Positions 3,666 to 64,000 of a stretch of 64,000 nucleotides of DNA are shown here, one piece after another. The stretch lies in the NCBI RefSeq assembly GCF_009905255.1, contig NZ_CP047602.1, positions 1,054,001 to 1,118,000 of the forward strand, in the 5' to 3' direction. A program made the translations under genes and the position numbers. This DNA comes from Thermoanaerobacterium aotearoense. GTDB taxonomy: Bacteria > Bacillota > Thermoanaerobacteria > Thermoanaerobacterales > Thermoanaerobacteraceae. The stretch's first letter is position 1; each line of letters begins with the position of its first letter. The notes under the pieces are model-generated. The model did not search any database, was not told the origin of the DNA, and saw only the letters and a program-made list of their open reading frames with translations.

Positions 3666-5147
3666 CTATAAATCAGATATTTTTATGTTTAAATCAGCAC
3701 CAATAACTCCTATGCACGATCCGTTTTTATCGATTAATGGAATAGATACAGTTAAACATGGAGCTTTTGTAATAGCAGATATATAGACTTCAGATACATA
3801 TTCTTTGCCTTTTATGGATTTTTGAAACCATTCTCGCACGTTTGCATTCGCAATACCAGCAGGTGGATTTGAATAAATAAATCTTCCTTTAATATCATTT
3901 GTCCAAAGAGCTTCTATTTCTTTATGATTTTTTAAAAAAGCGTCAAGTGCTTCTTTATGAAAATTCCTATTCATTAGTAAGAATTCATCTGAAATTATTT
4001 CTTTTTTTATAGATTTTATTACATTAATTGCTGTATTCTTTATATTTTCAAAATTCATTCGTATTACATTTTTTATTTCATCGCTTTCGGACAATAATTT
4101 CAAATCATTTGATGCTTCTTTTAATTTATCGCTTAAAAATACTATTTTCTCTGCATTTTCTTTTTGATGATATATAGAATTATTCATGATATCAAAATTA
4201 TTTGATACTTCTTTTAATAAGTTTTGAACACTTTCGATCTTTTCATTGATATTTTTAACGTACTTATATTCATCTTCAGAAACATTTACGATTTTGCTAA
4301 TCATGTTCATAACTGTATTGTTGTATTCTTCTATCATGCTTAAACTTTTTTCTATATTCATTGTACTACTTACACTATCCTTGACGTTTATATAATTTTC
4401 ACTGGCTGATTTTTTGACATTTTCTATTTCGTTATTTACTTTTTCGATTAGTGACACAATATCTGTTACAGCTTTATTGGTGTTTAAAGTTAATTTTCTG
4501 ATGCCATCTGCGATAACGCCAAAACCATTGCCATATTTTTCGGCTTTTGCAGATTCTATAGATGCATTTAGTGAAAGTAAATGGGTTTCTTTAGCTATTT
4601 TTTCAATTGATTTTAATATCTGAGAAATTTGTATTGATATTTTTGTAAGCTCATTTATACGATTTAGTGTTTCTTCTGTGGTTATAGAAATGTTGCTTAT
4701 CTTATCTAAAACTAATCTGATTTCTTTGAAACTTTCATTTACCAGTTTTCTCGATTGAATGCCAGTGTTGTACATTTCTCCAGAAGTATTTTTGATATTT
4801 TCAAGCTTTTCAACTAATTTCTTTATTTCGGTGATTGTATTTTCTACATTTTCATAGCAAAGTGAATTATTTGAAAATATTTCTTGCGATTCGGCATATA
4901 GTTGTTGGGCAAAAGCATTATTTTCTTCCATAGTAATAGACAATTCTTCTGATACAGAGAATATACGGCTTGAAGCGACTTGTGTCTCAAATATGTATTT
5001 TACAAGTTTCTTTTTAAGTCTTGTTATTGATACAGATATGTCTTTTATTATTCCTTTAAAATTAATGTAGTCTTTATTTTCATCTAGTAAATTATTCGCA
5101 TTTATAATATTTAACAGTTTCAACAATTGTTTGTCTTTGAACACCAT
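3666..5147 (-). CDS. Soluble methyl-accepting chemotaxis protein with C-terminal sensor domain
   Basis: 493 residues, with no membrane helix or signal peptide. From about residue 45 to 365 it is long coiled-coil helix typical of chemotaxis receptors; the hairpin tip is recognisable though diverged, as ETHLLSLNASIESAKAEK followed by GFGVIADGIRKL (near residues 190-220). The last ~110 residues (from about LKNHKEIEALWTN to the end) look like a Cache/PDC-type ligand-binding fold, with GRFIYSNPPAG, a helix, then PCLTVSIPL and GVIGADLNI. That order, signalling part first and sensor last, is the reverse of the common membrane receptors and implies a cytoplasmic signal. ATG 5147 has a good GAGGTG ribosome site. 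A perfect promoter and an attenuator-like leader lie upstream. Confidence 0.85.
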   Translation of the reverse strand: MVFKDKQLLKLLNIINANNLLDENKDYINFKGIIKDISVSITRLKKKLVKYIFETQVASSRIFSVSEELSITMEENNAFAQQLYAESQEIFSNNSLCYENVENTITEIKKLVEKLENIKNTSGEMYNTGIQSRKLVNESFKEIRLVLDKISNISITTEETLNRINELTKISIQISQILKSIEKIAKETHLLSLNASIESAKAEKYGNGFGVIADGIRKLTLNTNKAVTDIVSLIEKVNNEIENVKKSASENYINVKDSVSSTMNIEKSLSMIEEYNNTVMNMISKIVNVSEDEYKYVKNINEKIESVQNLLKEVSNNFDIMNNSIYHQKENAEKIVFLSDKLKEASNDLKLLSESDEIKNVIRMNFENIKNTAINVIKSIKKEIISDEFLLMNRNFHKEALDAFLKNHKEIEALWTNDIKGRFIYSNPPAGIANANVREWFQKSIKGKEYVSEVYISAITKAPCLTVSIPLIDKNGSCIGVIGADLNIKISDL

Positions 5148-61155: not shown

Positions 61156-61287
61156 AACGGTAATATAGGTATTATTGAAAGGCATGATGGTAGAATAGAA
61201 GTCGCGAGTAAGGTTGGACAGGGCAGCACTTTTACGATAATACTGCCAGAAGAAAATTTAGCAGGAAGAAATTTTGAATCCTGCTAA
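61156..61287 (+). pseudogene. Remnant of the 3' end of a sensor histidine kinase gene
   Basis: Straight after the aminotransferase stop, the same strand reads NGNIGIIERHDGRIEVASKV followed by GQGSTFTIILPEEN, then a stop at 61285. This is the closing G2-box end of a HATPase domain (the usual form is ELHGGKIWVESEVGKGSTF). It has no start, no kinase core and no ribosome site: a deletion scar. Confidence 0.8.
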
Positions 61288-61294
61288 ATTTTCT
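61251..61294. terminator. Bidirectional terminator between the kinase remnant and superoxide dismutase
   Basis: Perfect 16-bp inverted repeat AGAAAATTTAGCAGGA (61251-61266)/TCCTGCTAAATTTTCT (61279-61294), loop of 12. T-rich ends on both strands. It contains both the remnant's stop and the last codons and stop of the dismutase. Confidence 0.85.
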
Positions 61295-61880
61295 TCATAT
61301 CGATCCAATTGTATACACGTTTGTTTACTTCATCCCATTTGACATTGTTCATGAAAGCATCAATATATCCTTTTTTGTCGGTTCCGTAGTCTATAAAATA
61401 TGCGTGTTCGTAAGTATCGATTATTAAAAGGGGAATCGACCTTGAAATGATGCCATGATTGTGAAGATCTTGCAGATAATTGTGAAGCTTTAAGTCAATT
61501 GGGTCAAAGCAAAGAACTGTCCAACCCCTTGACGATATTGCACATGCTTTAAAGTCGTTAAGCCAGTTTTCATAAGAGCCGAAATCGTATGTTATCATAG
61601 AAGCGATTATTCCTGTTGCAGGGCCGCCTGTTCCGCCAAGGTTTTCAAAGTAAAGTTCGTGCAGTTTTACGCCATCCAATGCATACGTTTCTTCCAGTTT
61701 AAGTTCTCTGTATTGGCTGTATGTGGCATTTGCATTTTCCCTATCAGACGTGGTTAATTTCTCCCAAATTTCATTTGTCTTGTTAACATATCCTTCATAC
61801 AATTTATAATGCTCTTGCAACGTCTTTTGCGATATGCCGTTTAACACTAAGTTATACTTTTTAGGTATCAACCTTTTCAA
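61284..61880 (-). CDS. sod: Iron/manganese superoxide dismutase
   Basis: 198 residues from TTG seven bases after GGGAGGT. Converts superoxide to oxygen and hydrogen peroxide. All four metal ligands can be placed: His24 (LQEHYKLYEG), His74 (KLHELYFENL), Asp155 and His159 (DTYEHAYFIDYG). GGTGGPATG and SRGWTVLCFD are also typical. No signal peptide. Iron or manganese cannot be decided. The protein is somewhat diverged from the Bacillus and E. coli types. It is a single-gene unit ending in the shared bidirectional terminator. Confidence 0.9.
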   Translation of the reverse strand: MKRLIPKKYNLVLNGISQKTLQEHYKLYEGYVNKTNEIWEKLTTSDRENANATYSQYRELKLEETYALDGVKLHELYFENLGGTGGPATGIIASMITYDFGSYENWLNDFKACAISSRGWTVLCFDPIDLKLHNYLQDLHNHGIISRSIPLLIIDTYEHAYFIDYGTDKKGYIDAFMNNVKWDEVNKRVYNWIDMKKI

Positions 61881-62549: not shown

Positions 62550-62558
62550 TTTATCAAG

Positions 62559-62588
62559 TCGCTCTGGAATTTAAGAGCGATTTTTTTA
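62559..62588 (+). terminator. Rho-independent terminator after ywlG
   Basis: TCGCTCT (62559-62565)/AGAGCGA (62574-62580) stem, then TTTTTTTAT. Confidence 0.9.
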
Positions 62589-62594
62589 TAAAAA

Positions 62595-62608
62595 TTGATT
62601 ATAATCAC
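62595..62608 (+). promoter_or_regulatory. Crp/Fnr-type box before the crp/fnr gene
   Basis: TTGAT-TATA-ATCAC. Matches the Fnr consensus TTGAT-N4-ATCAA in nine of ten defined bases and is the same, in its half-sites, as the box at 63328. It lies 22 bases upstream of TATACT (62630-62635), a likely -10, so binding there would suit activation or autoregulation. Confidence 0.65.
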
Positions 62609-62653
62609 AGAATTTTATCTTGATTTTGTTATACTAAATGTGGAGGTGGTGGT

Positions 62654-63331
62654 ATGGAATGTAAATATTGTGCTCAGGTTGTACATATTTTTAATGAACT
62701 AAATGACGAAGAATTAAAAGTCATATCCGATCTGACAAAGGAATGTTTTTATAAAAAGGGAGACATCATACTGAATGAAGGTGACATCTTAGAACAAATA
62801 TACATAATTCACAGTGGGAAGATAAAAATTTACAAGATAAATTCAGATGGCAAAGAACAGATATTGTATATTTTAAAAGATGGTGATACTTTTGGAGAAA
62901 ATAGTATATTTAAAGAGCAAAAGTCCACATTTTACGCTGAAGCCATGGAAAATGTAAGTATGTGCATTTTGTCAAAAAATGACTTCGTGAAGATAATATC
63001 AAAGAATCCGGCTATCGCCTTTAAAATCATGAATTATTTGAATGAAAGAATTAAAAGCCTTGAGCTGCTTCTTAAAGATCTGACCACAGAAGATGTTAAA
63101 AAGCGCCTTATGTCAATCATTTATAGGCTTGCCAAAAAAGACGGAATGAAAGATATAAACGGTATTAAACTAAGACTTTATTTAAGCAGAGAAGATCTGG
63201 CGAATTTAGCCGGTACCACCAGGGAGACCGTTAGCAGAAAATTAAGAGAATTAGAACATGAAGGGATAATAGAGTTTTTATCAAATAGGGAAATACTAAT
63301 TAAAGATATTGATGATTTCAATGAAATTTGA
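62654..63331 (+). CDS. Crp/Fnr family transcription regulator
   Basis: 225 residues. An N-terminal CKYC pair (Cys3, Cys6) precedes a cyclic-nucleotide-type beta-barrel (about 20-125, FYKKGDIILNEGD, IIHSGKIKIY, LKDGDTFGENSIF), a long dimer helix, and a winged HTH with recognition helix TTRETVSRKLRELEHEG (about 190-210). Only two cysteines are near the N-terminus, so an Fnr cluster of the usual four-Cys type is not evident; redox or metal sensing by thiols is possible. GGAGGTGGT ribosome site. Matching boxes lie upstream of this gene and of the HMA/ATPase genes. Confidence 0.9.
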   Translation: MECKYCAQVVHIFNELNDEELKVISDLTKECFYKKGDIILNEGDILEQIYIIHSGKIKIYKINSDGKEQILYILKDGDTFGENSIFKEQKSTFYAEAMENVSMCILSKNDFVKIISKNPAIAFKIMNYLNERIKSLELLLKDLTTEDVKKRLMSIIYRLAKKDGMKDINGIKLRLYLSREDLANLAGTTRETVSRKLRELEHEGIIEFLSNREILIKDIDDFNEI

Positions 63332-63341
63332 TCAGGATCAC
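63328..63341 (+). promoter_or_regulatory. Second Crp/Fnr-type box, before the HMA/ATPase genes
   Basis: TTGAT-CAGG-ATCAC. Half-sites are identical to those of the box at 62595; it overlaps the stop codon of the regulator gene and lies 64 bases before the HMA start. Confidence 0.7.
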
Positions 63342-63404
63342 ATAAATTTTTGAGGAAAAGTTTTATTATTAATGTGTAATAAAAATTAAAAGGAGATGAT
63401 TTTA

Positions 63405-63611
63405 ATGATGAAAGAAGTAAAATTTGCCGTTGAAGGGCTTAGCTGCCCGGATTGCAGCAAAAAAATCGAACAGGCTTTAGCTGCGCAAAAAGGTGTAAAA
63501 GAAGCCAAAGTGATTTTTACAACTGGCTCTGTTAAGGTAAAGTTTGACGATGAAGTCATAACACTTGACGATATAAAGAGGGTTATAAAAGATTTTGGAT
63601 ACAGCGTCTAA
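63405..63611 (+). CDS. Heavy-metal-associated (HMA) domain protein
   Basis: 68 residues, a single ferredoxin-like HMA fold. Metal-binding CPDC at Cys14/Cys17 in EGLSCPDCSKKIEQ. ATG 63405 is nine bases after AAGGAG; ATG 63396 overlaps that site and ATG 63408 follows. It resembles CopZ-type chaperones or the detached N-terminal domain of the metal ATPase encoded next, to which it may deliver metal. Confidence 0.88.
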   Translation: MMKEVKFAVEGLSCPDCSKKIEQALAAQKGVKEAKVIFTTGSVKVKFDDEVITLDDIKRVIKDFGYSV

Positions 63612-63625
63612 GATTTAACTATGAT

Positions 63626-63651
63626 GTCGGGCTTTTGCTCGACTTATTTTT
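63626..63651 (+). terminator. Terminator-like hairpin between HMA and ATPase genes
   Basis: GTCGGGC/GCTCGAC stem (one G-T pair), 4-base loop, then TTATTTTT. It could reduce read-through into the ATPase gene, giving more HMA protein than pump. Confidence 0.65.
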
Positions 63652-63669: not shown

Positions 63670-64000
63670 ATGACGTATATGAAGGATAAAAAACTATTTT
63701 CACTTTTGTTAGCTGCAATTTTCATAATTTTAAGCTGGTCATTTAAATTTTTTGATTATAAAGTTGTGGCAAATATTTTAATGTTAGCTTCAGCGGTTGT
63801 TTCTGGATATAATATCTTGAAAAGTGCTTTATTATCTTTAAAGTACAAGATCATAAGCATAAATTTGCTTGTATCGATTGCAGCAATAGGGGCAATAATA
63901 ATTGGTGAATATTGGGAAGCTGCAGCAGTGACATTTCTGTTTTCGCTTGGAGGCTTTTTAGAATCATATACCCTTCAAAAGACGAGGAATGCCCTTAAAT
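63670..64000 (+). CDS. Heavy-metal translocating P-type ATPase, 3' end cut by window edge
   Basis: First 110 residues from ATG 63670, after AAAGGAGGTG; the gene runs past the window. Four hydrophobic segments fit helices MA, MB, M1 and M2 of P1B ATPases. The blocks NLLVSIAAIGAIIIGEYWEA and FLFSLGGFLESYTLQKTRNA are characteristic of the zinc/cadmium/cobalt (CadA/ZosA-like) branch. It lacks its own HMA domain, which is supplied by the preceding small gene. The metal-choice motif in the membrane lies outside the window. Confidence 0.9.
   Translation, partial: MTYMKDKKLFSLLLAAIFIILSWSFKFFDYKVVANILMLASAVVSGYNILKSALLSLKYKIISINLLVSIAAIGAIIIGEYWEAAAVTFLFSLGGFLESYTLQKTRNALK

Follow-up and report, generated by a model that had tools for sequence, protein, structure and literature searches.

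The described regulators that come closest to the one analyzed here are the Flp proteins (Flp of Lactobacillus casei, FlpA and FlpB of Lactococcus lactis), which are defined by an N-terminal cysteine and a cysteine at the position of FNR Cys122 and which lack the four-Cys motif. In the work of Gostick of 1998 and 1999 and of Scott of 2000, a thiol switch is said to have been described for Flp, and metal and oxidative phenotypes for FlpA and FlpB. Crp/Fnr proteins are seldom discussed as controllers of metal pumps, and FlpA has been classed under metal homeostasis (PMC3616900). For the pumps, the published motif set of P1B ATPases is (C/S/T)P(C/H/P), in which CPG is not included (PMC9387928). 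An earlier note on this DNA had regarded Crp/Fnr control of a metal pump as less usual than control by CsoR, ArsR or MerR. A Crp/Fnr gene is indeed the regulator gene adjoining the pump, and no regulator of the CsoR, ArsR or MerR family was met beside it, but the arrangement is not a one-off, as it is found on many plasmids, and with Flp-type regulation this kind of wiring already has a known precedent.

The window, i.e., the whole stretch of 64,000 nucleotides that was analyzed (G000:C1:1054001-1118000), is part of the 2.67 Mb single-contig genome of Thermoanaerobacterium aotearoense. All features of the module are on the forward strand, and the gene names have Pfam and NCBIfam support. Box 1 (TTGAT-TATA-ATCAC, TTGATTATAATCAC, 62595-62608) is located 5' of the regulator gene, and a terminator-like hairpin (62556-62583), which ends the upstream DUF436 gene, sets this gene apart from the box. 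The Crp/Fnr regulator gene follows (225 aa, 62654-63331), and box 2 (TTGAT-CAGG-ATCAC, TTGATCAGGATCAC, 63328-63341) lies across its stop codon (63329-63331). The next gene encodes a stand-alone HMA domain protein of 71 aa with the motif GLSCPDC (63396-63611, the start codon is likely at 63405), which is probably a metallochaperone. The last gene, for a P1B-type ATPase, occupies positions 63670-64000 and continues beyond the window; the full gene (G000:C1:1117670-1119508 plus stop codon) encodes 613 aa. Between the HMA and ATPase genes there is a second terminator-like hairpin (63626-63643), which is retained in a diverged congener; its stem is kept between the window and that congener (GTCGGGC/GCTCGAC versus GTCGAGC/GCTCGAC). 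A gene for an Fe/Mn superoxide dismutase (61284-61880, reverse strand) adjoins the DUF436 gene and is thus close to the module.

The exact motif TTGAT-N4-ATCAC has only two matches in the window, box 1 and box 2, and direct reading confirmed the earlier claim that their half-sites are identical and that one box precedes the regulator gene and the other the HMA/ATPase genes. The genome scan for the 14-base motif that had been suggested gave six exact matches in the 2.67 Mb versus one match of the reversed control pattern. At two mismatches, the window contained 96 matches where 103.9 are expected by chance. The exact match by itself is thus modest evidence, and the motif count alone was rejected as proof. 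The four further exact matches in the genome were rejected as regulon members, because all of them are inside coding sequence, within long ORFs that, judged by eye, resemble helicases, a kinase-like protein and RecO. A wider motif combined with a -10 hexamer at 21-22 nt had ten matches in the genome. Three of these were the two window boxes and box 1 on the opposite strand, four matches at three loci were CRP-like palindromes, and the remaining three were not clear promoter sites of the HMA/ATPase module.

Because loose matches occur at chance level, the argument beyond chance rests on conservation. Both boxes are retained at the orthologous loci of four congeners, and the left-hand TTGAT asymmetry is kept in every congener and in both boxes. 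In the most diverged congener (L046), the regulator is 72% and the pump 74% identical. Its boxes are TTGAT-TTTA-ATCAC and TTGAT-CCAT-ATCAC, i.e., 10/10 half-site bases are unchanged in each box, the N4 spacers differ, and much of the sequence flanking box 2 has changed. The TTGA of box 2 coincides with the last codon and the stop codon of the regulator, so that coding places some constraint on its left half but none on ATCACA.

A 14-nt operator centered at -41.5 and a -10 hexamer at -12 leave a gap of exactly 22 nt, which is the position of a class II activator. Box 1 is followed after 21 nt by the -10-like hexamer TATACT (62630-62635), which is kept within the genus, and box 2 after 22 nt by TATTAT (63364-63369). 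Relative to the inferred starts, the box centers are at about -40.5 (regulator) and -41.5 (HMA/ATPase transcript), and there is no good -35 hexamer upstream of the -10 of box 1. The spacing was surveyed with 39 distinct boxes of the pattern [TG]TGA[TC]N4[AG]TCA[AC] that lie close to an HMA, ATPase or Crp gene in loci with CPG pumps, and TATAAT matches were scored for each spacing from 5 to 49 nt. The matches peaked at exactly 22 nt with a mean of 3.9 of 6; the means at other spacings were mostly 1.3-2.5, with 2.6 at 20 nt and 2.85 at 27 nt. At 22 nt, at least four matches were found for 27 of the 39 boxes, which do not represent 39 independent events, as six are from the window genus and several from related plasmids.

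The regulator has the Crp/Fnr fold with an effector and a winged-helix domain, and its AlphaFold2 model (pLDDT 83.7) resembles Crp-family structures, with GlxR as the best match. It contains Cys3, Cys6, Cys31 and Cys104, and the assignment to the Crp/Fnr family with an N-terminal CxxC made in the earlier note proved to be correct (Pfam; residues 3 and 6). In an alignment of the module regulators with E. coli FNR, Cys104 was at the position of FNR Cys122 in 38 of 38 proteins, Cys6 was found in each of the 37 whose N-terminus could be read, and a cysteine at the positions of FNR Cys23 or Cys29 was found in none of the 38. Both conserved cysteines are present in eight of 27 other Crp/Fnr paralogues, and neither in the other 19. 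The statement that the regulator lacks the four-Cys Fnr pattern is therefore right for Cys23 and Cys29, but the equivalent of Cys122 is kept. The window regulator does not have the four-ligand set of FNR (Cys20, Cys23, Cys29, Cys122). It shares with FNR the fold, Cys104 at the Cys122 position and an FNR-like TTGAT half-site, and differs from it by the missing equivalents of Cys23 and Cys29 and by a CRP-like Arg in the recognition helix. The N-terminal cysteine and the FNR-122 cysteine without a four-Cys motif are the Flp-type feature, and the window regulator has the fold in common with Flp as well. In these two cysteines and in a tail that is usually rich in His and Cys, the module regulators resemble the Flp proteins more than FNR.

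Across the module regulators, Cys and His make up 23% of the tail N-terminal of Cys6, versus 2.4% of the remaining sequence, and 26 of 37 have at least two Cys/His residues in this tail. The tail of the window protein is short (MECKYC), with only Cys3 before Cys6. Thiol or metal sensing by the window regulator is plausible, but, because of the short tail, the case for metal sensing is weaker than for many of its relatives. The cAMP-contacting Arg of the phosphate-binding cassette was not found in the window protein, which has KSTFYAEA there (compared by eye with CRP). The recognition helix is TTRETVSRKL, in which RETVSR begins at residue 190. This motif supplies an Arg at position 180 of the CRP numbering together with an FNR-like Ser, and the window boxes combine an FNR-like half-site, TTGAT, with a CRP-like one, GTGAT. 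In most relatives, position 180 is occupied by Pro, Gln or Val, and the boxes are symmetric (TTGAY). Arg180 has been reported to accompany a G as the third base of the half-site (PMC1274295). The Arg would thus fit the mixed half-sites of the window boxes, which is not a proof. Arg180 as a strict rule for GTGAT was rejected: it partly fits the window genus and the published correlation, but one relative (L190) has Pro at position 180 and yet a GTGAT/GTCAC box.

The pump has the sequence ACPGALVIS in M4 and HEAS in M6 and does not itself contain an HMA domain. In an alignment of eight pumps, taken from the window genus, from Listeria, from plasmids of lactococci, lactobacilli, enterococci and staphylococci and from a haloarchaeal plasmid, CPG and HE are invariant. 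In a P1B tree of 100 proteins, calculated with a quick method and with the columns of the CPG motif included, 32 CPG pumps were on one side of a single branch (SH-aLRT 99), apart from the CPC and SPC pumps. The CPG/HE pumps are a single clade of P1B ATPases, and a description of a CPG group was not found in the openly accessible literature that was searched. The best general NCBIfam matches of the window pump, above the cut-off, are the heavy-metal and cadmium subfamilies, a likeness to the P1B-2 pumps ZntA and CadA; it differs from these by the lack of CPC, of the Asp in M6, of an own HMA domain and of a neighboring ArsR gene. With P1B-4 pumps (SPC ... HEGxT; motifs from PMC8880997) it has HE in M6 and one Cys in M4 in common, but it carries CPG and HEAS instead, and the CPG clade is separate in the tree. 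The names CopZ/CopA and ZntA were rejected for the HMA protein and the pump, because the curated cut-offs were missed (64.2 bits for the HMA protein with CopZ, NF033795, cut-off 91; 421 bits for the pump with the ZntA equivalog, cut-off 1240). The former label of a zinc/cadmium/copper-type pump is not justified: the pump belongs to a clade of its own, and the same genome encodes elsewhere two pumps with CPC, one CopA-like and one CadA-like, the latter adjoining an ArsR-like gene.

Among nine genomes of the genus, orthologues of the regulator and the pump are either both present (G000, G002, G003, G005, G008) or both absent (G001, G004, G006, G007). In a scan of named genomes, a Crp/Fnr gene was near the pump in six of ten CPG loci. 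Of the 70 other P1B loci, none had such a gene within 1.2 kb, and two had any Crp-like match in their flanks, in each case at a large distance from the pump (Fisher p ~2e-5). A strict box near the ATPase gene was found at 7/10 CPG loci versus 0/70 others (p ~4e-8), and all ten CPG loci had a stand-alone HMA gene. In a survey of the phylum, the CPG pattern occurred in 61 of 398 genomes, with very few matches for the control. Sixty matches were fetched, five of which were not intact pumps. A stand-alone HMA gene was present at 51 of 55 loci and a strong Crp/Fnr match at 22 of 55; at over half of the loci a Crp/Fnr gene was absent from the fetched flank, many of the contigs being short. Only 15 of 54 loci in this survey had a strict box near the ATPase gene.

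The arrangement was also found on many plasmids of lactic acid bacteria, Listeria and Enterococcus and in other phyla. Plasmids of Lactococcus, Enterococcus and Staphylococcus have the gene order ATPase-HMA-Dps-Crp/Fnr, and the lactococcal plasmid carries the same boxes. A Listeria plasmid has the order Dps-Crp/Fnr-HMA-ATPase with four boxes, one ahead of each gene; the box ahead of dps is at 4127-4140 (L044), and fetB (iron export) is annotated nearby. Of the FlpA/FlpB-type cluster genes, the full set is found on the plasmids of lactic acid bacteria and staphylococci, and the window locus has the HMA gene but not dps. The window module differs from the Flp systems by the missing Dps gene, by the CxxC that replaces a His-rich tail, and by the Arg at the CRP-180 position with mixed half-sites. 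The CPG clade is not always linked to Crp/Fnr, because the pump on a Halorubrum plasmid (L049), which also has an HMA gene, lies beside a different helix-turn-helix gene.

The claim that the boxes tie the regulator to its own gene and to the HMA/ATPase genes is borne out, as far as sequences can tell, by conservation, class II spacing, occurrence in other phyla and the joint presence or absence in the nine genomes. Boxes, regulator and pump very probably form a genuine switch for metal or oxidative stress that has been little studied. Our preferred reading, with a probability of roughly 0.66, is a self-controlled metal-homeostasis module, in which a metal- or thiol-responsive class II Crp/Fnr activator would induce an HMA chaperone and a pump for divalent metals. 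As a dimer, the regulator would occupy box 1, some 41 bp upstream of its own transcription start, and box 2, equally far upstream of the HMA/ATPase genes. It would thereby recruit RNA polymerase to promoters whose -10 is good but which have no good -35. Its activity would be set by Cys6 and Cys104, together with additional N-terminal Cys/His ligands, and the signal may be the binding of a metal ion, the formation of a disulfide as in Flp proteins, or both. The active regulator would raise its own level and those of the small HMA metallochaperone and the CPG-type pump, and the pump would remove a divalent metal. Fe2+ or Zn2+ is a guess for this metal, and iron or zinc is favored because Dps and fetB are neighbors on plasmids. 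The hairpin at 63626-63643 is possibly a partial terminator, which would give more chaperone than pump.

The regulator could also be a repressor or have a dual role, with a resting form that sits on the -41 boxes and is released when its cysteines are modified by metal or oxidant. Most metal-efflux genes are governed by de-repression (CsoR, ArsR, CopY), a repressor may regulate its own gene as well, and a -41 site could also repress; the narrow peak at 22 nt with a good -10 is, however, the geometry of a class II activator, and the lack of a good -35 upstream of the -10 of box 1 also speaks against repression, which is therefore regarded as rather unlikely. An oxygen-labile Fe-S cluster as in FNR would turn the pump into a gene of the oxygen or anaerobiosis response instead of the metal response. 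Cys104 at the FNR Cys122 position and the two N-terminal cysteines agree with a cluster, but the invariant cysteines are only Cys6 and Cys104, which together with the cysteine-free Cys23 and Cys29 positions are too few for a canonical four-Cys cluster. The canonical FNR cluster was rejected for this reason; a non-Cys ligand may take part, and the Fe-S explanation as a whole is unlikely.

Binding of the boxes mainly by a Crp/Fnr paralogue (e.g., G000:C1:27056) as part of a NO/redox stress regulon, with a secondary role of the adjacent regulator, is distinctly improbable. It is favored by TGTGAT-N4-ATCACA palindromes with the same -10 spacing ahead of hcp-like, ferredoxin-like (near a rubrerythrin-like gene) and DUF438-like genes, and by a CRP-like site at hcp in Thermoanaerobacter tengcongensis with Crp2 as the likely regulator (PMC1274295). 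A protein that binds GTGAT palindromes would, however, not maintain the TTGAT asymmetry seen in every congener; in addition, the boxes of other taxa adjoin the gene of the two-cysteine regulator, and the aligned paralogues of the genus have neither of the two cysteines. The palindromes, at G000:C1:124710, 752897-752965 and 2159782 (L227, L229, L230, L236; genes named by eye), probably belong to a separate Crp/Fnr stress regulon. As a similar motif is probably used by a paralogue that this genome encodes, cross-binding is possible. That the matched boxes are a mere coincidence, as the chance level of the two-mismatch motif might suggest, is extremely improbable in view of cross-species conservation, spacing and recurrence.

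The wiring of regulator, box, chaperone and pump recurs in many lineages and also on mobile plasmids that food and gut bacteria carry, which speaks for a general stress module, and the fixed box position together with two invariant cysteines provides a simple, testable model for the preferred reading of a self-controlled activator. More broadly, it is tentatively suggested that two-cysteine Crp/Fnr proteins with a His/Cys-rich tail are direct metal sensors and a class of metalloregulators, and that the CPG/HE pumps under their control, found in Bacillota, Actinomycetota, Pseudomonadota and haloarchaea, form a separate subgroup of P1B ATPases that has a metal specificity of its own. The CPG clade offers a defined set for work on metal specificity, and several P-type ATPases on listerial plasmids have unknown substrates (PMC8508797). 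In one congener (L048, G003:C84:128045-129872), the orthologue of the pump is split across two overlapping ORFs, either as a broken gene or through an assembly error.
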